Shown here: positions 3,217-50,539 of the stretch, piece by piece | Numbering within the stretch: the first letter of the stretch is position 1 | How the letters are laid out: the number at the start of each line of letters is the position of its first letter | Assembly (NCBI GenBank): GCA_902788095.1 | Contig: CADAIT010000010.1 | Coordinates: forward strand, 50,112-114,111 | Direction of reading: 5' to 3' | Origin: an uncultured Bacteroidia bacterium | GTDB taxonomy: Bacteria > Bacteroidota > Bacteroidia > Bacteroidales > UBA932 | DNA length: 64,000 nucleotides | Notes under the pieces: generated by a model | Told to the model about the DNA's origin: nothing | The model's database searches: none | The model's input: the letters and a program-made list of their open reading frames with translations, nothing else | Translations under genes and position numbers: made by a program

Positions 3217-4431
3217 ATGGAAAAAATTAAAATGACCACGCCGCTCGTCGAGATGGACGGCGACGAAATGACCAGAATCCTCTGGAAAATGATTAAGGAC
3301 GAACTCATTATCCCGTTCGTGGACCTCAAATCCGAGTACTACGACCTGGGTCTTGAGTACCGCGACAAGACCGGCGACCAGGTTACTGTGGACTCGGCCA
3401 ACGCGACCAAGAAGTATGGCGTCGCCGTGAAGTGCGCCACCATCACGCCCAACGTGCAGCGCATGAGCGAGTACAACCTGCACCAGATGTGGAAGAGCCC
3501 CAACGGCACCATCCGTGCCATGTTGGACGGCACCGTGTTCCGTACACCCATCACCATCCCTTCCATCCATCCGGCCGTGAAATTCTGGAAAAAACCCATC
3601 ACCATCGCCCGTCATGCCTACGGCGACGTGTACCGCGATGTGGAAATCCAGACCAAGGAAGCCGGCGTTGCCAAGCTGGTGTTCGAAGGCGTATCCGGTG
3701 AACGCATCGAGGAAATCGTCCATGAGTTCAAGGGCCCCGGCATCATCGAGGGCATGCACAATACCGACGCTTCCATCCGCAGCTTCGCGCATGCTTGTTT
3801 CACCTACGCCCTGGATGTAAAGCAGAGCCTCTGGTTCGCCACCAAGGACACCATTTCCAAGAAGTACGACGGCCGTTTCAAAGCCATTTTCGAGGAAATC
3901 TTCGAGGCCGAATACAAGGAGAAGTTCGAAGCCGCCGGCATCGAGTACTTCTACACCCTCATTGACGATGCCGTCGCCCGTGTCATGCGTTCGGAAGGCG
4001 GTTTCATCTGGGCCTGCAAGAACTACGACGGCGACGTGATGTCCGACATGGTCTCCACTGCCTTCGGTTCCCTGGCCATGATGACCTCCGTGCTGGTGAG
4101 CCCGGACGGCAAGTACGAGTATGAGGCCGCTCACGGCACCGTGACCCGCCACTATTACAAGTACCTGAAGGGCGAAGAGACTTCCACCAACCCGATGGCT
4201 ACCATCTTTGCCTGGAGCGGCGCCTTCCGCAAGCGCGGCGAACTGGACAACCTCCCGGAACTGGTGAACTACGCCGACCAGCTGGAGGCAGCCTGCTTCG
4301 ACACCCTCAACGAAGGCCTGGTGACCAAGGACCTGGTAAACCTCATGGAAGGCATTACCCCCAAGGCCCTTACCTCCCTGCAGTTCCTCCAGGAAATCCG
4401 CAAGCGTCTGGAGAAGCGCCTCAGCGCTTAA
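3217..4431 (+). CDS. icd: NADP-dependent isocitrate dehydrogenase (eukaryote-like subfamily)
   Basis: 404 residues, the usual length of the dimeric NADP-IDH related to eukaryotic IDH1/2 rather than E. coli Icd. It oxidises isocitrate to 2-oxoglutarate and CO2, yielding NADPH. Motifs: [10 protein letters not shown] at the N-terminus, [32 protein letters not shown] in the substrate loop, the metal-binding [24 protein letters not shown], and [11 protein letters not shown] in the cofactor site. It follows acn by 5 bp and is followed by a palindrome and a terminator. Together the pair supplies 2-oxoglutarate for glutamate synthesis, as known for Bacteroides with an incomplete oxidative TCA cycle. 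Confidence 0.96.
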
Positions 4432-4516: not shown

Positions 4517-4575
4517 CGCTATATTGTAAATGGACAGCTTGTTATCGGCCAGTAGTTATTTCTGGAATATTTCTG

Positions 4576-4604: not shown

Positions 4605-7295
4605 GTGAATTTAGCTGACAGCATCAAGAACAACCTACTGGTGGAAGAGCGTTACAGGATGATCCTGGACGGCCTGCAGGTGACGCTGCTCATTACCCTG
4701 TGTGCGGCTGTGCTGGGCACGCTGCTGGGCGGGGTGGTCTGTTGGGCACGCATGAACCGGAGGGGCTGGCTGCGGCAGTCTGCCAAGGCGTACATCAAGC
4801 TGATGCGCGGCACGCCGGTATTGGTGCTGTTGATGCTGATGTACTATGTATTCATGGCGCCGCTGGGGGCGACGGGCGTCGTCGTCGCCATAGTGACCTT
4901 CGCGATGAACGTATCGGCCTATGTGGGTGAGATGCTGCGTGCGGCCATCGGCGGCATCGACCGTGGGCAGACCGAAGCCGGCCTGGCGCTGGGACATACG
5001 CCCCGACAGACATTTTTCCGGATTGTGCTGCCGCAGGTGGTGAAGTCCGTGATGCCTGTCTATGAAGGCGAGCTGGTTACCCTGCTCAAAGGCACCAGCA
5101 TCGTGGGCTATATTGCCGTCATGGATATGACACGGGCCTCCGACCTTATCCGCAGCCGCACCTTCGACGCCTTTTTTCCGCTGCTGGTCACTGCAGCCCT
5201 CTATTTCCTCGTCGCCTGGCTCATCGGCCTGTTGCTGGAAGGACTTGTCCGGAAGCGTGCCCGTCCGGCGATACTGGCAGCGGCGGCACTGCTGGTGCTG
5301 GGCGTGGCCGGCTATGTTCCCTCCATGGTAAACCGCGTGGCGGGGGATACTGCCGTTGAAGACTCCCTGCCGGTTTTCGAGGCGCTGAAAGGTAAACGCG
5401 TGGGTGTGGTAATCGGCAGCATTCAGGACATGGCCGTTACGCGTCATGCCCCTGAGGCCGATATCCAGCGTTTCTCCAGCTTGACCGACATGTTAGCCGC
5501 CTTGCAGAACCACAAAGTGGATGCCGTGTGCCAGGAGAATGTGACGGTCACGATAAACAAAGAAATTGCCGCCGTTGTGGATACGGTGGATGCCGGATTG
5601 CCGCCCCGCCCGGTGGCTGCCTGCTTCCCGCTGGGGGACACCCTCCTGCAGCAGGATTTCAGCCGCTACATGGCCGACATCCGGGCCGACGGAACGTACT
5701 GCACCATCCACGACCGCTGGTTCAGGACCGACGATATCTCCGGGATTCCCGTTCCGCAGCAGAAGGGCACGGGCCGGACCTTACGCGTGGCCACTTCCCC
5801 CTTGTCGCCTCCGTACAACTTTATCGCATCGGGTCAACCCTCCGGCTTCGAAATTGACCTGCTGACCGAATGGGCCAACCGCCGCGGCTGCCGCATCGCG
5901 TATCTGGTGATGGATTTTGCCGCGCAGATTCCCGCCCTGCAAAGCGGGAAGGCCGATATGGCGATAGGCTCCGTGGCCATTACCGAGGAGCGGGCGAAAC
6001 AGGTGCTTTTCTCGGCCCCCTACAATGCGGCGCGCATTATGTTCTATACCCGCAAGGGGGAAGCGGAACTGCTGACGGGGGGTGGCGATTCGGCCCCGGA
6101 CGCTGCTCCGGACAAGGCTTGGTGGCTGCTTCTTGCCGCCCTGCTGGCCGGGGGAGGCGTGGTATTCGTCCTTGCCCGCAGCAAGGGGAAAGGGCAGGAA
6201 GCGCAGGGCGAGGTTCAGCCGTTTTCCGGCATTTCCATCTCCGGACTGAAGAAGCGTTACGGGGACCTGGAGGTGCTCAAAGACATCCATCTTGAAATCC
6301 GGAAAGGAGAGGTGATATCCGTCATCGGCCCTTCCGGCTGCGGAAAAAGCACCTTCCTGCGCTGCCTCAATCTGCTGGAACGTCCCGACGGCGGCAGCAT
6401 TTGCATCGACGGGCAGGACATCCTTGCGGACGGGGCCGACACGCCGGCACTGCGCCGCAGGATGGGCATGGTGTTCCAGGGCTTCAACCTGTTTCACGAC
6501 AAGACCGTACTGGAGAATGTGACCATGAGCCCCATCCTGTTGCTGGGGAAAAGCCCCCAGGAGGCCCGGGAGCAGGCGCTCCGGTTGCTGGAAACGGTGG
6601 GTTTGGCCGAGCGTGCCGACGCCATGCCGGACGAACTGTCCGGCGGTCAGAAACAGCGTGTGGCCATTGCACGTGCGCTGGCGATGGAACCGGATATTCT
6701 GCTGTTCGACGAGCCTACTTCGGCCCTGGACCCTACGATGGTGAGTGAGGTGCTGGGCGTGATGACCCGGCTGGCCCGGCAGGGCATGACCATGATTGTG
6801 GTCACCCATGAACTCCGTTTTGCCCGTCAGGTCAGTTCCCGCGTACTGTTTCTTGCCCAAGGCGTTATCTATGAGGAGGGTACGCCGCAGGAAATCTTCG
6901 AGCATCCCAGGCGGGAACTTACGCAGCAGTTTATCCGGCAGATATACCGCTCCACCTTCCTGATTGGCAGTGAGCGCTTCGACTGGTTTGCCATGACCGC
7001 GCAGATGGAGCAGTTCTGTATGCGCTACAATCTGCCCCGCAGTGTGACGGACAGCGTACTTCATGTGATAGAGGAGTCCCTGACCGTGCTGGAAACACAG
7101 GCCGGAACGTGCCTTACGCTGGCCTATTCCCAGCAGGACGGCACCTTGACCTGGGAGGTCCAATGTCCCCATGCCATTCCTGCCGGGGTGTTTGAGGAAA
7201 GCCAAAACAACCTGGCCGTCACGCTCCTTCGTCACTTCAGCCGGGAAATCAAGATTGAAGGAGACACGGTACGTATAATGATTAACAGTTTATGA
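4605..7295 (+). CDS. Fused polar amino acid ABC transporter: permease - permuted binding domain - ATPase - C-terminal extension
   Basis: About 896 residues from GTG 4605. This start lies after the TATATTTG box and keeps [16 protein letters not shown], which aligns with the permease starts of the two sister proteins. Order: HisM/GlnP-type permease (~10-220), extra helix (~222-240), extracytoplasmic binding domain (~256-485), helix (~505-524), ATPase (~543-780; Walker [30 protein letters not shown], switch VTHE) and a 115-residue tail. The helices place each part on the correct membrane side. In the binding domain the lobe-II half ([12 protein letters not shown]...[12 protein letters not shown]) precedes the lobe-I half ([14 protein letters not shown]...[15 protein letters not shown]), the reverse of the normal order. 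The usual ligand Asp in VDAVVVDE is replaced (VDAVCQEN). The tail resembles a degenerate RsbW/GHKL fold; this is an inference. The stop overlaps the next start (ATGA). Confidence 0.85.
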
Positions 7296-8752
7296 TACAA
7301 TTGAACCGCATCGTATTTGCAATTTTTGTGTCCCTGCCCCTGATGCTCGCATGCAGCGGAGGCGGGGAAAAGGTCCAAGAGTTCAAGAGCGAAGCAGACC
7401 TCTCCGGTCATGTCCTCAGCACATCGGCCGGCAATTATTTCGACAACAAATATGCCGGTCGTGACGACATTACGCTTTTCCTCGTGAACTCGGAGGCCGA
7501 CGGCATCCAGGCTTTGCGCCAGGGACTTGCCGATGTCCATGTCACGGATGAGGTCGCCTTTCCCAAGGACGCTCGTGACCAGCTCGGTATCGAACTGGCT
7601 TTCCGGGGGGAGGAGCAATTTGAAGTGGGCTTCGCCCTCCAAAAAGGGAACAATGCGCTGCGGGCGGAGCTGAACCGCTTTATAGAGGCTTCCAAGGCCG
7701 ACGGCACGCTGGATGCCATTATCAACCACTGGCTGAACGGTACGCCTGCACCGCCTATGCCTGCTGCGGCTGCGACCGCACGCGGGGGAGCCTTCAAATG
7801 TTTTACCGCCATCAATATGGAACCGGTCTGCTTTCTGGGCGAGGGCGGGCAGTGGAAGGGCATGGATACCGACATCCTCCGTCGTTTTGCCATCTGGAGC
7901 GGCAGGGATTTCCAGATGTCTTTCATGGACCTGGGCTCGGGCATCATCGCCCTGAACACCGGCCAGTGCGACGTGGTGAATGCGTGTCTGTATGTGACGG
8001 AGGAACGGAAGAAGTCCGTAGATTTCACCACGCCGTACTACTTGTGCCGCGGCGGTTATTTCGTCCTTGACAGGGACAGGAAATCGGGAATGGGCCTGAA
8101 GGAGCGCCTGGAGATGAACCTGCTGGCCGAATCCAGATGGAAACTCATTACAGACGGTCTTTGGGAAACCCTCCGGATAACCCTTTTGTCCATCCTGCTC
8201 GGGACCCTGCTGGGAATAGGCGTCTGCGCCATGCTCCGCAGCCGCCGCAAGTGGGCGAGGAAAGCGGCGACGCTTTACGGCGCGTTCATCCAGGGCATTC
8301 CTACACTGGTGCTGCTTCTTATCATGTTCTATGTGGTATTGTCCAAGTCCGGAGTGAGCGGGACGCTGGTCGCCGTCGTTACTTTTGCCATGTGCTTTGC
8401 CTGGTCGGCCGGAAGCATTTTTGATACGTCCATTTCTTCCGTGCCTGCGGGCCAGACCGAGGCCGGCCTCAGCCTTGGACTCACGCCGCTGAAGACTTTT
8501 GTCGGCATTGTGGTTCCCCAGGCCCTCAGAAAAGGCCTGCCGCTCTATTCCGGTGAATGTGTGGCTCTTCTCAAGAGTACCTCCATAGTGGGGTATATCG
8601 CCATCATGGACCTCACGCGTGCGAGCGACCTTATCCGCAGCCGTACCTTCGACGCTTTTATTCCGCTGTTGGTAGTCACTGTCGCCTATTTTGTACTGGC
8701 CTGGCTCATCCGCCTCCTGCTCAGGCTCCTTTTCCCCCGGAAGGCCGCTTGA
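7292..8752 (+). CDS. Lipoprotein binding domain - permease fusion, polar amino acid ABC transporter
   Basis: 486 residues. A lipoprotein signal peptide ends at Cys21 (PLMLAC). The binding domain follows in permuted order: lobe-II half ~33-150 ([23 protein letters not shown], then FALQKGN and [12 protein letters not shown]), then lobe-I half ~168-260 ([27 protein letters not shown]). An HisM-type permease with about five helices follows (~282-480; [16 protein letters not shown] is the EAA loop, [19 protein letters not shown]). The N-terminus outside and C-terminus inside fit permease topology. It overlaps the upstream fusion gene by 4 bp, so the two are likely translated together. It has no ATPase of its own and would use the ATPase of its neighbour or of the 37.5-kb locus. 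It resembles the 36.1-kb protein along its whole length. Confidence 0.88.
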
Positions 8753-8767
8753 CGGCTTTTTTCGGGG
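8734..8767 (+). terminator. Probable terminator overlapping the permease stop
   Basis: CCCCGGAAGGCCG pairs with CGGCTTTTTTCGGGG around CTTGA. The inner GCCG/CGGC stem is followed by six T. It spans the stop codon at 8750-8752. Confidence 0.5.
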
Positions 8768-8902
8768 TGGGCTGGCGGTGTTATTTTGCTGGTAGGCTGC
8801 CGGTGGTTCTTGGGGAGACTGCCGGTGGTTTTTGGGTGGGCTGGCGGTGGCATTTTGCTGGTAGGCTGCCGGTGGCTCTTGGGGAGACTGCCGGCAGCTC
8901 TT
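8765..8902. repeat. Two tandem copies of a ~69-bp repeat
   Basis: Units start at GGGTGGGCTGGCGGTG (8765 and 8834) and share TTTTGCTGGTAGGCTGCCGGTGG and TTGGGGAGACTGCCGG segments. TGACGGCTTTTTT occurs just before the tract (8749) and again just after it (~8930). Open frames through the tract are low-complexity by-products of the repeat. Confidence 0.75.
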
Positions 8903-9163: not shown

Positions 9164-9310
9164 ATGACCAAACAAAAACAACTCTACTGTGCCCCCTGCA
9201 CAGAAGTCCTCGTAGTACAAACCGAGGAAGGTATCCTTAGTGTGTCGGGAACTGGGAATCCCAATTCCTGGTCCAATGGCAATACGAACTGGTTTAACGA
9301 TGAAGACTAG
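9164..9310 (+). CDS. Small protein (48 aa) preceding a fimbrillin-like gene
   Basis: MTKQKQLYCAPCTEVLVVQT continues to a C-terminus rich in Asn, Gly and Trp ending NTNWFNDED. Bacteroidales often carry such short proteins (Y-x-P-x-x-E-V-L-x-V... then a Trp/Asn/Asp tail) before fimbrillin or surface lipoprotein genes; their role is unknown to me. The start ATG 9164 overlaps the stop of a possible leader frame, and the stop lies 16 bp before the fimbrillin-like start, so co-transcription is likely. No signal peptide is seen. Confidence 0.6.
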   Translation: MTKQKQLYCAPCTEVLVVQTEEGILSVSGTGNPNSWSNGNTNWFNDED

Positions 9311-9326
9311 TGCCACACCCAAAACC

Positions 9327-11663
9327 ATGAAACTTATGAAAAAGTATTTTATTCTTTTGAGTGCCGCATTTGTATCTATAGCACTCGCTTCGTGTCAGAA
9401 AGAGACGAACAAGCCCGAGGGACCCGTTGTTGAACCGAAGGTTGAAGAAGGGGTTATTCCTTTCGAACTGAATGCAGATATTACTGAAACCAAAACTACG
9501 CTTAACACATCTACGTATGCAGTTACCTGGGATGCTTCAGATGTCTTGTACGCCGTAACAACGGATGCTGTCTGGGGTGACGGAACCTCTTCAACAGATG
9601 CAGAAGGTGCAAATATTGCCACCTTCACTTATAACGGTGAGAAATTTACTACTGATAAGGTCATAGCTAAGGGTGAGCATACATTCAATTTTATCTATGC
9701 GGGAAGCGGACAGAAGAAATATCACAGAGCAACAGGCTCTACTCATCAACTCTATGCTAACCAATCTGTTGATGCCGAGAATCCTGCTCAGAATCTGAAA
9801 GCCAACGATGCACTTGTAGGACAAATCACAAAGACGATTCCTGCATCTTTAGCAGATATCACTATGAGTCACATTTACACGCTCATGAAGGTGACGATCA
9901 AGAATAAGATTGGTGCTGCCGTGACTGCCTCAAAGTTTGAGATTCAGATTGATGGTGAAGCTATTGCTGGCATTTTTGATGTGTCGTTTGATACTCCTGG
10001 GGTAACTCTCAAGTCGAGTGCCTCTGACAAGATTACAGTGAATATTTCTAATGGTTCAATTGCCGACAATGGCTCCATTGATATTTACTTTGTCATGGCG
10101 CCGGTGGCGGACTTTACAGGTAACGTAACGTTCTCTGTCACGGATAGCAACGGTATTGTATATACAAAGACCAATTCGGTTTCGAATCTTACGTTTGCTG
10201 CAGGCTCATATAATACGGCAAATTTCTCTTTAAAGCCGGAACCTGTTAAGACTTTCTATCGTATAACTCAACTCGAAGAACTTGAAACCGGAGATTATAT
10301 CATAGTCGGAACAAAAACCTCAAGTAGTTTTGGACTGCTTACTTATGGCTCGCTTAGTAGTAGTCGAATTCCTTATACTGAGAGTTATACATCGTATGTT
10401 TCATTACCCACTTCGGTGGACAGCAATGATGGACTATCTATATGGCACTTGACGGTGTCGGGAACATCTCCAAAGTCAGTAAAAATTTACAACGAAAAAA
10501 AGGATGTATATTTATCCAGTACTATTGCATATGTCAATGAAGAATCAGCGACTTCTTTCAATGCAACAGTAGATAGTGATATGTTTGCATTCCAATCAGA
10601 GTCGAACTATTTAGGAGTGAATAAGAGTGCCAATTTCTGGAAAGTTTATGCAGCAAGCACGTTGAATCAGACTAATGGGCTTGTATTATATAAATATGAG
10701 GAACCTTCTAATTTGGCATCAATCGCAATTGATCCTAGCAGTACACATCCAATCGAATTTTATAAGGATGATGTGTTCTCTTCAGAGGGACTGATTGTAA
10801 AGGCTACGTATGAAAATGCGAAAGTTAAAACAGTGACCCCTACCAGTATCTCTGCTCCTGACATGACCACTGTCGCAAATGATGTAGTAGTTACTGTTTC
10901 ATATACAGAAGCGGGTATTACGAAGAATACGTCATATACAATTGATATTCTTACCCGTCCTCTTTTTAGCGTTACTTTGGGAGATACCTCTGGGCCAGAA
11001 GTTGTACTGACGGAGGCTTCTGCCGGATCGGGTATAGAACTCCCGACACGCACAGCTCCGAGTGGCTATACTTTTGAAGGATGGTGTGAAACCGAGGTTA
11101 CATCTGCTACATCAACGGAACCTACGATTATTCCTGTTGGGACCTATCATCCCTCCGCAAATTTGACGGTATATCCTGTATACAGTTATAGTGAAAATAC
11201 TACTACTTGGACGAAAATAACTGACCTGTCTTCTGTTACGGCAGGAACTTACGCACTCCTCACTGAAAATGATTATGCGTTTAACGGAAATTTGAGCAGT
11301 AAGTTTATCGGGCAACATACGGAAGCAGCATTCACTTTTACCTCGGGAGTCGCTACAAGCGCTCCTGCAGGAACACTTGAAATAACCATTGCAGCATCAG
11401 GTTCTGGTTTCACTATGTATGCGGAGGGGAAAGGATACTTATATGCGGCTGCTGCTTCAAAAGAAAACTTAAAATGGCATGATACAGAAACCAGTTTCTG
11501 GATAAGTGACAATGGCTGGAAATATAATGCAAATAATGCTTTTTTAAGAACGTTATCTTCCGATAATACATTTAGGACATATGGATCCAGACAAAATCAG
11601 GTTCTTAATATGGCGAGAAAAGGTTCTAGTGCTATGACTTATTACATCTCGAATCCAACCTAG
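9327..11663 (+). CDS. Fimbrillin-like surface lipoprotein with Ig-like and InlB-type repeats
   Basis: 778 residues from ATG 9327 (ATG 9336 is equally possible), with lipobox IALASC. The first ~300 residues have fimbrillin-clan features: ETKTTLNTSTYAVTWDASDVLYAVTT after a short spacer, then beta-rich sequence. A domain starting at YRITQLEELETGDYIIVG follows, then a bacterial Ig-like domain (ASIAIDPSSTHPIEFYKDD...VTVSYTEAGITKNTSYTIDI), an InlB B-repeat-like segment (PSGYTFEGWCE...LTVYPVYSYSE) and a C-terminal domain starting TWTKITDLSSVTAGTYALLTE. It is probably exposed on the outer membrane as adhesin or fimbria-related. The gene is visibly AT-richer than its neighbours and sits between two repeat tracts, which suggests acquisition or a variable cassette. 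Confidence 0.75.
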   Translation: MKLMKKYFILLSAAFVSIALASCQKETNKPEGPVVEPKVEEGVIPFELNADITETKTTLNTSTYAVTWDASDVLYAVTTDAVWGDGTSSTDAEGANIATFTYNGEKFTTDKVIAKGEHTFNFIYAGSGQKKYHRATGSTHQLYANQSVDAENPAQNLKANDALVGQITKTIPASLADITMSHIYTLMKVTIKNKIGAAVTASKFEIQIDGEAIAGIFDVSFDTPGVTLKSSASDKITVNISNGSIADNGSIDIYFVMAPVADFTGNVTFSVTDSNGIVYTKTNSVSNLTFAAGSYNTANFSLKPEPVKTFYRITQLEELETGDYIIVGTKTSSSFGLLTYGSLSSSRIPYTESYTSYVSLPTSVDSNDGLSIWHLTVSGTSPKSVKIYNEKKDVYLSSTIAYVNEESATSFNATVDSDMFAFQSESNYLGVNKSANFWKVYAASTLNQTNGLVLYKYEEPSNLASIAIDPSSTHPIEFYKDDVFSSEGLIVKATYENAKVKTVTPTSISAPDMTTVANDVVVTVSYTEAGITKNTSYTIDILTRPLFSVTLGDTSGPEVVLTEASAGSGIELPTRTAPSGYTFEGWCETEVTSATSTEPTIIPVGTYHPSANLTVYPVYSYSENTTTWTKITDLSSVTAGTYALLTENDYAFNGNLSSKFIGQHTEAAFTFTSGVATSAPAGTLEITIAASGSGFTMYAEGKGYLYAAAASKENLKWHDTETSFWISDNGWKYNANNAFLRTLSSDNTFRTYGSRQNQVLNMARKGSSAMTYYISNPT

Positions 11664-11743
11664 AGATTAGTCGTACTTAATAAAATGCAAGTGGCAGCAA
11701 CTATTCCGAAGTAATGGTAAGTTGCTGCTACTTTTTTTATCGC

Positions 11744-13080
11744 TTGCCGCGTTTGCAGTTGGAGTGCCGTAGAAGGCCGGTTTCGTGCAATCGCGGCTGG
11801 AGAAATGCCCCCTGCGGTCGGAATGTTTGCCGCGTTTGCAGCTGGAGTGCCGCAGAAGGGCGATTTCGTGCAATCGCGGCCGGGAGAACACCCGCCGCGA
11901 ACTGCTCACGCTGTATGCTCCGGTGTGATAGCTTGCCACGTTTGCAGCTGGAGTGCCGTAGAAGGCCGGTTTCGTGCAATCGCGGCCGGGAAGATGCCCC
12001 TTTGGGCCGGAATGCTTGCCACGTTTGCAGCTGGAGTGGCGCAGAAGGCCGATTTCATGCAATCGCGGCCAGGAAGATGCCCCTTTGGGCCGGAATGCTT
12101 GCCGCGTTTGCAGCTGGAGTGCCGTAGAAGGCCGTTTTCGTGCAATCGTGGCTGGAGAAACGCCCCGTCGCGACTGCTCACGTTGTATGCTCCGGTGTGA
12201 CAGCTTGCCGCGTTTGCAGCTGGAGTGGCGCAGAATGGCGATTTTGTGCAATCGCGGTTGGGAAGATGCTCCTTTGGGCCGGAATGCTTGCCGCGTTTGC
12301 AATTAGAGTGCTGCAGAAGGCCGATTTCATGCAATCGCGGCCAGGAGAACACCCCGTCGCAACTGCTCACGCTGTATGCTCCGGTGTGACAGCTTGCCGC
12401 GTTTGCAGCTGGAGTGGCGCAGAAGGCCGATTTCGTGCAATCGCGGCCGGGAAGATGCCCCTTTCGGCCAGAATGCTTGCCGCGTTTGCAGCTGGAGTGC
12501 CGTAGAAGGGCGATTTTGTGCAATCGCGGCCGGGAAGATGCCCTTTTTGGTCGGAATGTTTGCCGCGTTTGCAGCTGGAGTGCCGCAGAAGGCCGGTTTC
12601 ATGCAATCGCGGCTGGGAAGATGCCCCTTTTGGTCGGAATGTTTGCCGCGTTTGCAACTGGAGTGGCGTAGAAGGCAGATTTCATGCAATCGCGGCTGGA
12701 GAAACGCCCCGTCGCGACTGCTCACGCTGTATGCTCCGGTGTGACAGCTTGCCGCTTTTGCAGCTGGAGTGGCGCAGAAGGCAGATTTTGTGCAATCGCG
12801 GCCGGGAAGATGCCCCTTTGGGCCGGAATGCTTGCCACGTTTGCAGCTGGAGTGCCGCAGATGGCCAGTTTCGTGCAATCGTGGCCGGGAAGATGCCCCT
12901 TTTGGCCGGAATGCTTGCCACGTTTGCAGCTGGAGTGCCGTAGAAGGCCGATTTCGTGCAATCGCGGCCGGGAAGATGCCCCTTTTGGTCGGAATGTTTG
13001 CCGCGTTTGCAGCTGGAGTGCCGCAGATGGCCAGTTTCGTTCAATCGCGGCCCGCAAAACGCCTCCCTTCGGCCCGCGAA
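11744..13080. repeat. Tandem array of 15 units, two unit lengths (83 and 106 bp)
   Basis: Units begin TTGCCGCGTTTGCAGCTGGA at 11744, 11827, 11933, 12016, 12099, 12205, 12288, 12394, 12477, 12560, 12643, 12749, 12832, 12915 and 12998. The spacing is exactly 83 or 106 bp. Long units (11827, 12099, 12288, 12643) share the first ~60 bp and carry a different 3' part with ACTGCTCACGCTGTATGCTC and CGGTGTGACAGC. Short units end GGGAAGATGCCCCTTTGGGC, CGGAATGC. The last unit is degenerate. Each unit can form a GGCCG...CGGCC stem. Since 83 and 106 are both 2 or 1 modulo 3, reading frames shift from unit to unit, so no continuous protein repeat is encoded. Function is unknown. Confidence 0.9.
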
Positions 13081-36059: not shown

Positions 36060-37505
36060 ATGATTAAAAAACACGTATATGCCGTTGTCCTGGCGCTGAT
36101 GACGCTTCTTTCCTGCGCAGAGCAGAAGGACAGCACCATCGTCCTGCACTCGGAGGAGGATCTGGCGGGGCGCAGGGTCGCCTGTGCCACGGGGTCTTAT
36201 TACGAATTCCAGCTCTCTGCCCGCAAAGATATCGACTTGTTCATTGTCAACTCCGAGGCGGACGGCATGCAGGCCCTGCGGGAGAACATGGCGGACGTGT
36301 TCGTGACCGATGAAGTCATGCTCACCGAAGCATCCATGCGGGAACTGGGCCTGAAAAAAGCCCTGCGGGGCAATGAGGCGCTCGGCGTGTCGTTTGCCCT
36401 TAAAAAGGGAAATACGGAGCTCATGACGCAGCTTAACGATTTCCTGCGCTTGCCGGAAGTCAAAGACATTGTCGCTTATTGGACGGAGGGTGCGGCGGAC
36501 AGGCGTCCTCCGATTCCGGAGGTTCCCGCGGACGCAGAACCGCTCCGCTGTATCACGGCTCTCAACCTGGAACCGGTAAGCTATGTGGGTACCGGGGGCG
36601 CGTGGACCGGGATGGAACCGGAACTGCTGCAGCGTTTTGCCGCTGCCCTGGACCGCCCGTTCAAGATGGAATTCCAGGATTTCGGCTCGGCCATCATCGC
36701 CCTGCAGACCGGACATGCCGACATCGTATCGGCTTCTTTGTTCGTCACGGAAGAACGGAAAAAGCATGTGGATTTCTCCATCCCTTATTACTATTGCCAT
36801 TCCGGGTACTATGTGGTGGACCACAGCAACGATTTCGAACTCGGCTTCCTGGACCGTCTCCGGATGAACCTGCTCACGGAAAAACGCTGGAGGCTGATTA
36901 CGGACGGCCTTGCAAAAACGCTCGAAATCACGGTCCTCGCCATTTTGCTGGGGACGGTGCTGGGAGCCCTGGTCTGCGGCGCAAAACGTTCCCGGCGCAA
37001 GTGGCTTCGCAGCCTGGCCAGCCTGTACGGGGACTTCATCGAAGGCATTCCCACGCTGGTACTTCTGCTCATTATGTTTTACGTAGTCTTCGCCGGGGGC
37101 GGCATCGGGGCCACGATGGTTGCGGTGGTTACGTTTTCCTGTACCTTCGCCGCATCGGCCGGAAGTATTTTTGACACGTCCATTTCCTCCATTCCGCACG
37201 GACAGACGGAGGCCGGCCTGAGCCTGGGTTTAAGCCAGTACCGGACTTTTACCGGTATCGTGCTGCCCCAGGCCGTGCAAAGGGGACTCCCGTTCTATAT
37301 CGGCGCATGCGTTTCCTTGCTCAAAGAGACATCTATTGTGGGATACATTGCCATACAAGACCTTACGCGTGCCAGCGACCTCATCCGCAGCCGTACCTTC
37401 GACGCGCTGATTCCGCTGGCCCTGGTTACCATCCTGTATTTTGTCTTAGCCTGGGTACTCCGCATCCTGCTCAACCTTTTCCTTAAAAAGAAACAACATG
37501 ATTAG
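36060..37505 (+). CDS. Lipoprotein binding domain - permease fusion, polar amino acid ABC transporter (second locus)
   Basis: 481 residues with lipobox TLLSC (Cys19). The binding domain is permuted: lobe-II half ~31-145 ([46 protein letters not shown]) precedes lobe-I half ~161-255 ([30 protein letters not shown]). A HisM-type permease (~275-478) carries the EAA loop [16 protein letters not shown]. The lobe-II Asp and lobe-I Arg that contact the amino acid in the family are both kept, unlike in the large fusion at 4.6 kb. The ATPase gene overlaps its end by 8 bp. One lipoprotein-permease and one ATPase suggest homodimers of each. Confidence 0.88.
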
Positions 37506-38571
37506 CGTTAAACATTTAAGCAAGACATTTACGAATCCGGACGGCTCCAAAATCACCGTTCTCAAGGATGTGAACTGCGAGATCAAGCAGGGAGAGGTCA
37601 TCAGCATCATCGGCCCTTCCGGAACGGGGAAGAGTACCTTCCTCAGGGCCCTCAACATGCTGGAACCGCCCACCGGAGGCGAAATCTGGGTGGACGGGGA
37701 GAATATCATGGCCAAGGGCTACCGGCTGGACAAGCTGCGCCAGAAAATGGGCATGGTGTTCCAGAACTTCAACCTTTTTGACCACATGACGGTGGTGGAA
37801 AACATCACTTACGCGCCCATGCGCCTGCGGGGCGTCCCGGAAGAGGAGGCCCGGAAGGAAGCCATGGAACTGCTTTCGAAGGTGGGGCTGGCACAGAAGG
37901 CCGACGTGTATCCTTCGTCACTTTCCGGCGGTCAGAAGCAGCGCGTAGCCATCGCCCGTTCGCTGGCCATGCACCCGGAGGTGATTCTGTTCGACGAGCC
38001 TACATCGGCCCTGGACCCGACGATGGTAGGGGAGGTGCTCAGCGTTATGCGGCAGTTGGCCAAGGACGGACTTACCATGCTGATTGTCACGCACGAGATG
38101 CGTTTCGCACGGGATGTGAGCACCCGCATTTTCTTCATGAACGAGGGCATCATTTATGAGGACGGCACTCCGCAGCAGATTTTTGAGCACCCGGTGCACA
38201 GTGCCACCAAGGCCTTTGTAAACCGCATCCAGAAGCTGGTTTACGAGATTGACTCGGACAACTTCGATTTCCTGGGCATCGGCTCGGACTTCAATAACTT
38301 CTGTGTCAAATACAACCTTGGCGCCAAAATTGACGTCATTTCCGAGGTGATGGAAGAAATGCTTTTCAAGCAGCTGAAGGACGTGCGGCCGCTTACCCTG
38401 CGCCTCACGTACGCGGCGCTGTCCGACGAAACGGCACTTGATTTCATGGTGGAAGGCATCACGACGTCTCCGCTGCCCCAGGGAAGTGCCATGGACGGCA
38501 TCCGCGCCAAAGTACAACAGGTGATAGAAGAGCCCACCACACGCGGTTTCAGGGTGAAAATTTTGATTTAA
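37498..38571 (+). CDS. Polar amino acid ABC transporter ATPase with C-terminal extension
   Basis: 357 residues. A GlnQ/HisP-type nucleotide-binding domain (~1-240) has Walker [53 protein letters not shown] and [10 protein letters not shown]. GlnQ proteins end near residue 245. Here a ~110-residue tail follows ([26 protein letters not shown]... to GFRVKILI), matching the tail of the large fusion protein, with an RsbW/GHKL-like pattern but no clear ATP-binding boxes. It overlaps the binding-permease gene by 8 bp. Confidence 0.9.
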
Positions 38572-49975: not shown

Positions 49976-50539
49976 ATGAAAAAACTCATCTTCTCAGCAG
50001 TCTTTGCCCTTGCGGCCCTGTCTGCATCGGCCCAAACCCTTGTAGTTTATTATTCCCGCACGGGGCAGAATTACACCTCCGACGGCATCGTGGACCTGAA
50101 AGTGGGCAACACCGCCTTTGTCGCAAAGCAGATTCAGAAGCTTACCGGGGCCGATATCTTCGAATTGGAAACCGTCAAACAGTACGCCGCCGACTACTAT
50201 GAATGTACCCGGGAAGCCAAGGAAGAGCTGAATGCCCAGGCCCGTCCGGCGCTCAAGGCCGATATCGACATTTCCAAGTATGATACGATTTATCTTGGCT
50301 GGCCCTGCTGGTGGGGCACTTACCCGATGTGCGTGGCCACCTTCCTGGAGGCCCACGACTGGAGCGGCAAGACTGTGATTCCGTTTACAACGCACGAGGG
50401 GAGTGGCTTCGGCAGCGGCATCCGCGACCTCAAGGCAGCCCTTCCTTCGGCAAAAGTTAAGAAGGGCCTCTCCATCCAAGGCTCCGAGGTGAAAAACGCC
50501 GGAAAACAGATTGAAGACTTTGTAAAAGGGCAGAATTGA
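49976..50539 (+). CDS. Flavodoxin with signal peptide
   Basis: 187 residues. N-terminal MKKLIFSAVFALAALSASAQ is a Sec signal. The flavodoxin body has VVYYSRTGQNYTSDG, LGWPCWWGTYPM and TTHEGSGFGSGIRD. An exported flavodoxin would have to acquire FMN in the periplasm. It ends 1 bp before the aldo-keto reductase gene, so they may work together in redox chemistry. Confidence 0.87.
   Translation: MKKLIFSAVFALAALSASAQTLVVYYSRTGQNYTSDGIVDLKVGNTAFVAKQIQKLTGADIFELETVKQYAADYYECTREAKEELNAQARPALKADIDISKYDTIYLGWPCWWGTYPMCVATFLEAHDWSGKTVIPFTTHEGSGFGSGIRDLKAALPSAKVKKGLSIQGSEVKNAGKQIEDFVKGQN

Follow-up and report, generated by a model that had tools for sequence, protein, structure and literature searches.

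We analysed a 64,000-nucleotide stretch of contig CADAIT010000010.1 (hereafter the window; GenBank assembly GCA_902788095.1, contig positions 50,112 to 114,111) from an uncultured member of the Bacteroidales, in which two genes, A and B, encode components of an ATP-binding cassette (ABC) transporter and overlap by the letters ATGA (7292-7295). A second locus at 36060-38571, missing from an earlier sequence-only reading of this DNA, encodes a third protein of the same kind, B2, which is 56% identical to B, together with a separate ATPase gene. Judged from the predicted domains, the window contains both the common two-gene form of the transporter (36-38.6 kb) and a fused variant (4.6-8.8 kb). 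In A, B and B2 alike, the half of the amino acid binding domain that corresponds to lobe II is encoded ahead of the half that corresponds to lobe I. The start of A is uncertain: the gene encodes 896 amino acids (aa) from a GTG at 4605, the start preferred in the sequence-only reading and no more than two residues away from where the homologue at locus L020 has its first Met, and 921 aa from an in-frame ATG at 4530. The positions that the sequence-only reading gave for the two genes are otherwise correct. The features of both loci are listed in Table 1.

Table 1. Genes and domains of the two transporter loci, in window coordinates.
Feature	Position	Strand	Basis
Gene A: permease - helix - permuted binding domain - helix - ATPase - tail domain	4605..7295	+	
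A: permease domain	4620..5279	+	Pfam BPD_transp_1 (PF00528), E 8.5e-20
A: extra hydrophobic helix, probably toward periplasm	5271..5327	+	hydropathy (direction inferred)
A: lobe II and C-terminal helices of binding domain, first	5373..5744	+	alignment to AncQR 106-231
A: linker, native C-terminus to native N-terminus	5745..5774	+	between domain matches
A: lobe I, second	5775..6056	+	AncQR 11-106; SBP_bac_3 match
A: extra hydrophobic helix, probably back to cytoplasm	6117..6173	+	hydropathy (direction inferred)
A: ATPase domain	6228..6929	+	ABC_tran; best NCBIfam match GlnQ
A: tail domain, possibly of degenerate HATPase_c_2/RsbW-like fold	6948..7292	+	fold weakly supported, via relatives
Gene B: lipoprotein signal - permuted binding domain - permease, 486 aa	7292..8752	+	
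B: signal sequence ending at lipobox Cys-21	7292..7354	+	sequence
B: lobe II and C-terminal helices, first	7382..7747	+	alignment to AncQR 110-231
B: Pro/Ala-rich linker	7748..7780	+	
B: lobe I, second	7781..8077	+	AncQR 10-100; SBP_bac_3 match
B: permease domain	8102..8749	+	Pfam; 4yms permease, E 6.8e-25
Gene B2: lipoprotein - lobe II (36144-36503) - lobe I (36531-36827) - permease	36060..37505	+	
ATPase gene: ATPase (37498-38217) with same tail as A (38236-38568)	37498..38571	+	

The lobe order was read from profile matches and from alignment to AncQR (4zv1), a solved native protein. The Pfam model SBP_bac_3 (PF00497), which has 132 positions in the release used, matches B in a whole-genome scan with profile positions 97-131 first and 4-93 second (4-95 for lobe I in a separate domain scan). 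The lobe-I half of A matches positions 1-96 (1-98 in the domain scan), but its first half gives a weak and unspecific match (4-131, 25.8 bits), and the order in A therefore rests on the alignment to AncQR. In that alignment the first half of A corresponds to residues 106-231 and the second half to 11-106; in B, residues 32-148 align to 110-231 and residues 166-257 to 10-100. Both halves are significant on their own in A and in B. The sequence-only reading had claimed that lobe II precedes lobe I in both proteins, and this agrees with the AncQR alignments and, for B, also with SBP_bac_3; halves in native order were looked for in the profile and AncQR alignments of A and B and were not found. 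B2 has the same order by alignment with B and by domain scan.

Reordering the halves restored a continuous match. When the halves of B were rejoined in native order, a single stretch (3-217) aligned to AncQR 11-231 with 83.0 bits (E 2.1e-22), compared with 71.1 bits for the domain as encoded, whose best stretch spans only 10-96 of the chain. As a control, lobe profiles were applied to ordinary binding-protein genes of the order and placed lobe I before lobe II in nine of nine; lobe II was matched weakly in some of them, with E as high as 0.03. The tenth locus of this control, L065, holds a divergent permuted gene. At positions 1-2223 of that locus, a permease fragment, truncated where the stretch begins, is followed by an ATPase with a tail and then by a 281-aa lobe II-lobe I protein; it is a possible outgroup.

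Structure prediction for the binding domain of B was based on an alignment of 104 permuted sequences, made up of the three units from the window and 101 of the 113 units of the named loci (described below) retained after a 90% redundancy filter. L020 was left out of one alignment (A1), as about 38 residues appear by eye to be missing at its lobe joint. AlphaFold2 modelled the 247-residue domain with a mean pLDDT of 95.2 and a pTM of 0.89, predicting one compact unit rather than two loose halves; two incomplete, unrelated domains were looked for in this prediction and were not found. Foldseek, which depends on chain order, gave the model TMq values of 0.35-0.47 and rmsd of 5.5-20.2 A for the 50 PDB chains listed out of 421 at E<=0.001, and the family-3 chains among these 50 scored 0.44 (4g4p) and 0.35-0.36 (6h30). 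The best PDB match to a profile of the permuted unit was the native tandem of GlnPQ (6h30). A clear family assignment by sequence, a confident model and low sequential TM scores are the combination that circular permutation predicts.

The lobe-II-first order is inherited; relatives were surveyed in Bacteroidales genomes, as the sequence-only reading had suggested, and beyond. Within the genus, a permuted gene, in some cases truncated, is present in 15 of 37 genomes, and near full-length matches to the permuted profile (E<1e-45) occur in 22 of the 393 genomes of the order; at E<=1e-5 the order yields 237 genomes, many of which, judging from those listed, match one half only. In a sample of the phylum, 32 of 296 genomes match at E<=1e-20 (the genome of the window is included in this count and in those of 15 and 22), with recurring frames of 258-306 aa that hold one full match (judged by frame length only). 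A set of named genomes was drawn as the best 80 of 516 loci encoding a relative and is thus a biased sample. The record titles among the relatives include Bacteroidales, Chlorobiaceae, Nitrosomonas, Nitrotoga, Methylococcaceae, Sporomusa, Akkermansia, Acidobacteriaceae and Desulfobacteraceae, many of them metagenome bins that are possibly misassigned. The usual plan consists of two genes, one encoding a lipoprotein with permuted domain(s) and permease and the other an ATPase with a tail. The one-gene form seen in A is complete in three more genomes (L028, L030 and L074) and partial in others. Free-standing permuted frames of 261-319 aa are found in L084, L090, L091, L092, L163 (1781-2683) and L166 (3017-3937), and no permease gene of the same family was found in the stretches of L090-L092. 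In a plasmid collection 37 records match, but coverage of the query reaches 80% or more in a single one; this record, from Enterococcus faecalis, is annotated as a fused substrate-binding protein/permease and is presumably a native GlnPQ-like tandem. The permuted domain is not a peculiarity of the A/B gene pair but characterises a large family.

Two other explanations of the lobe order were rejected. An undetected lobe I further upstream, which would conceal a native order, is contradicted by the named-genome loci, where lobe II is the first domain in all 87 genes in which both lobes were detected (85 fused to a permease and two free-standing); a lipobox-like motif (loose pattern) lies ahead of the first lobe II in 79 of these 87. 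Mis-assembly in one metagenome-assembled genome (MAG) was rejected because the same order occurs in many genomes, including, by record title, Nitrosomonas communis Nm44 and Sporomusa ovata DSM 2662. The lipobox Cys-21 of B is invariant in 10 of 10 aligned rows.

In HisJ and GlnH, an Arg of lobe I and an Asp of lobe II contact the alpha-amino acid. Across the 104 aligned rows, the lobe-I Arg (T-x-x-R motif) and a Gly are present in every row, the lobe-I Asp in 100, a Thr in 97 and the lobe-II Asp in 73, and B and B2 have both the Arg and the Asp. This conservation makes alpha-amino acids the likely ligand, less surely so for A; no neighbouring gene that would point to one particular amino acid was seen. 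The permease (PF00528) and family-3 (cluster F) binding (PF00497) domains were matched in A, B and B2, PF00497 above the cut-off, and the NCBIfam model TIGR01726, for permeases of the His/Glu/Gln/Arg/opine type, is above cut-off in B and B2 and is not among the 25 matches listed for A. GlnQ is the best NCBIfam match for the ATPase of A and for that at 37498-38571, in both cases under the model cut-off, and the ATPase motifs appear intact by eye (Walker A GPSG[CT]GKST and LSGGQ). In lobe order these proteins depart from the polar amino acid transporter (PAAT) type, lobe II preceding lobe I, and for this reason we call them a PAAT variant, which most likely works as a PAAT-type ABC importer for amino acids. 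The suggestion that the design is functional rather than broken is supported by the conserved lobe-I Arg and lobe-II Asp and by the single extra helix that hydropathy places on each side of the binding domain of A.

The composition of the importer departs in part from what was first proposed, namely that genes A and B encode a whole transporter. A contains every part once, so that a homodimer of A would be complete by itself, but B has no ATPase gene alongside, though its closest relatives have one. Four other relatives (L078, L107, L146 and L170) also have no adjacent ATPase gene in the stretches covered. Only two tail-bearing ATPases were found in the genome, which is 83% complete, namely that of A and that at 37498-38571, and B probably uses one or the other. 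In the common two-gene plan the importer would be a homodimer with two of each part. At L125, L128 and L132, two different permease genes lie ahead of one ATPase gene, a layout that makes mixed dimers possible.

We consider it very probable that these proteins form a branch of PAAT type I importers in which a circular permutation opens the fused binding domain at its first hinge strand and the domain adopts a predicted clam-shell fold, with A as a one-gene importer and B probably using the ATPase of A or of the second locus. The circular permutation itself, first put forward from the order of motifs, is supported by the alignment order, the re-ordering control, the predicted structure of the B domain and inheritance in relatives. 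Under this proposal, the chain would enter lobe II and pass through the native second hinge and the C-terminal helices to lobe I; the linker would join the former C-terminus to the former N-terminus, the remainder of lobe I would follow, and the chain would leave at the hinge toward the permease. Both lobes would close on the amino acid as a clam-shell, dock on the permease dimer and deliver the substrate for import powered by two ATPases. A would be the one-gene version, expected to form a homodimer, and B2 with its ATPase gene would represent the common two-gene plan.

Copy number varies among the relatives. Among 85 permease genes, 72 carry one lobe II-lobe I unit, four carry two, six carry three, two carry four and one carries five. 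The last, in a Prevotellaceae MAG (L152, 2658-7184), is a 1509-aa frame with five tandem permuted domains and one permease. Such chains could be read differently, with lobe I of each unit pairing with lobe II of the next as a native domain, the orphan first lobe II and last lobe I pairing at a distance, and single-unit proteins being leftovers. Of the inner pairs in the five-unit protein, at least one (678-903, matching profile 1-131) is labelled by Pfam as a native SBP_bac_3 domain, and the GlnPQ match of the unit profile points the same way. However, single-unit and free-standing lobe II-lobe I proteins occur, and in L084 the chain is broken between units, giving a 261-aa lobe II-lobe I frame and a 510-aa lobe II-lobe I-permease frame. 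In an AlphaFold2 model of two units (pLDDT 87.8, pTM 0.50), the sole segment below 50 pLDDT (residues 234-241) is the lobe I-to-lobe II joint between them. When this model is aligned sequentially to native binding proteins, rmsd is mostly about 20-22 A for the long alignments (234-254 columns) and about 12-16 A for shorter ones, with TMt <=0.43 in the 50 chains listed; these alignments presumably pair lobe I of the first unit with lobe II of the second. Lobe distances in tandem proteins (43 junctions; 25 of the 35 loci supplied) correlate more strongly within units (0.86 and 0.87) than across them (0.61), the within-unit value being higher in 500 of 500 subsamples, although whole-unit duplication after permutation would give the same result. 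Linkers between domain matches are 15-19 residues long, and the lobe II-to-lobe I linker often carries an M-P motif. We give little credence to a chain of native domains with orphan ends.

Several points weigh against the permuted clam-shell. All of the evidence is computational. Many of the 50 Foldseek chains are HisG enzymes or binding proteins of other types rather than family 3; the fold claim draws on confidence scores and low sequential TM for the B domain only, and the alignment behind the prediction contained permuted sequences only. A has Glu where the lobe-II Asp for the amino group is expected, and may bind poorly or bind something else. Furthermore, sequence does not distinguish the permuted domain from a domain-swapped arrangement in which the lobes pair across the two chains of the transporter dimer, lobe II from one and lobe I from its partner, and importers are dimers. 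Against a swap, the B monomer is modelled with confidence as one compact unit, free-standing permuted proteins occur, and the short linker should permit pairing in cis; we think it as improbable as the orphan-end chain. Decay of the halves into remnants that have lost substrate capture is less probable still: the lobe II of A is without the usual Asp, which is replaced in 31 of 104 rows, and two genus members have, respectively, an A-type gene without a permease in its contig (G010, L039) and a lone A-type permease of 234 aa (G019, L026), but the halves are kept together in relatives whose record titles place them in several phyla, with as many as five copies per protein, and the counts for Arg, Gly, Thr and lobe-I Asp argue for retained function.

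A further feature of these importers is a C-terminal tail on the ATPase. The tail is present on 104 of 104 ATPases that passed a filter (ATPase match of more than 200 residues and more than 250 bits, off the stretch ends, at a locus with a lobe-II match); this tally includes some genomes twice and excludes the 409-aa ATPase of L167, in which no tail was detected. Compared singly with HATPase_c_2 at E<=1, six of 31 and nine of 22 tails match, with a best E of 1.1e-5, and the printed scores of two members are 12.2 and 21.4 bits against a gathering cut-off of 27.4. In an hhalign comparison, 97 columns of the tail align to the C-terminal portion of a phosphatase-like protein encoded at L019 (E 5.5e-4, probability 30). 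Two profile searches of the tail domain against the PDB gave no match. Our best guess is that the tail is a degenerate, probably regulatory, HATPase-like domain, which may point to a regulatory input. MetN-type importer ATPases have an extra C-terminal regulatory domain of about 100 residues; unlike those, the tail described here weakly resembles HATPase_c_2.

We lean, by a narrow balance, towards a broader proposal: that these proteins represent a large undescribed importer class in Bacteroidota and several other phyla, in which permuted amino acid binding domains are strung like beads, each permease carrying between one and five. As the permutation would bring the two termini of a domain together at the hinge, any number could be joined without blocking the lobes. 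Every ATPase of the class would carry the degenerate HATPase-like tail, which may gate it, and the class would have had a single origin from a tandem of native domains that lost its first lobe I and its last lobe II.

Upstream of A, the frame at 3217-4431 was recognised by eye and is presumably an isocitrate dehydrogenase. Short tandem repeats of 22 and 69 bp lie immediately 3' of gene B, at 8758-8894. Downstream of the frame at 9240-11663, a tandem array at 11742-13052 has an 83-bp unit with about 90% matches, and also periods of 189, 272 and 355 bp. Frames are open on both strands of this array, suggesting that it is probably non-coding.

No permuted family-3 binding domain is named in the literature listings examined, most subscription journals being outside the coverage, so that this is no proof of absence; the branch is widespread yet apparently undescribed. 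One match to the word 'permuted' was rejected, as the part of the source available concerns GFP and not a binding protein (PMC9732360). A permuted class of amino acid importers would allow the hinge, the tether point and the docking of lobes on the permease to be tested against native importers of one family. It also exposes an annotation blind spot, as the Pfam reading of an inner pair in the five-unit protein as a native domain hides the permutation. In HisJ-QMP and GlnHPQ, the binding protein, permease and ATPase are encoded by separate genes; the importers described here draw on the same three protein families, but HisJ and GlnH have their halves in native lobe order. Among the closest known architectures is that of GlnPQ from Lactococcus lactis (6h30), described as a homodimeric PAAT importer that carries two binding domains on its permease, the ATPase being encoded by a gene of its own (PMC8025302). 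The likeness extends to family-3 domains fused in tandem to a permease, whereas the domains of GlnPQ run from lobe I to lobe II and the units here begin with lobe II. The nearest precedent for the permutation is Tp0684/MglB-2 of Treponema pallidum, assigned to 'Cluster Bc', which is described from its crystal structure as a natural circular permutation of an ABC binding protein, is tethered to the membrane and is reported to bind glucose and change shape, the first three strands of its N lobe being relocated to the end and a fourth crossing added (PMC4990184). As far as that account goes, both cases are natural permutations of a membrane-tethered ABC binding protein, but MglB-2 is a sugar-binding protein of type I/cluster B, whereas here whole lobes are swapped in a permease-fused family-3 domain. 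The listed sequence matches of the permuted domain are family-3-type amino acid binding proteins and their relatives, the contrast with MglB-2 being drawn from its description. In the print sources seen, MglB-2 is the only natural permutation of an ABC binding protein that we found, and it belongs to a sugar-binding cluster; the surprising parts of the present system are its wide distribution and its modular copy number.

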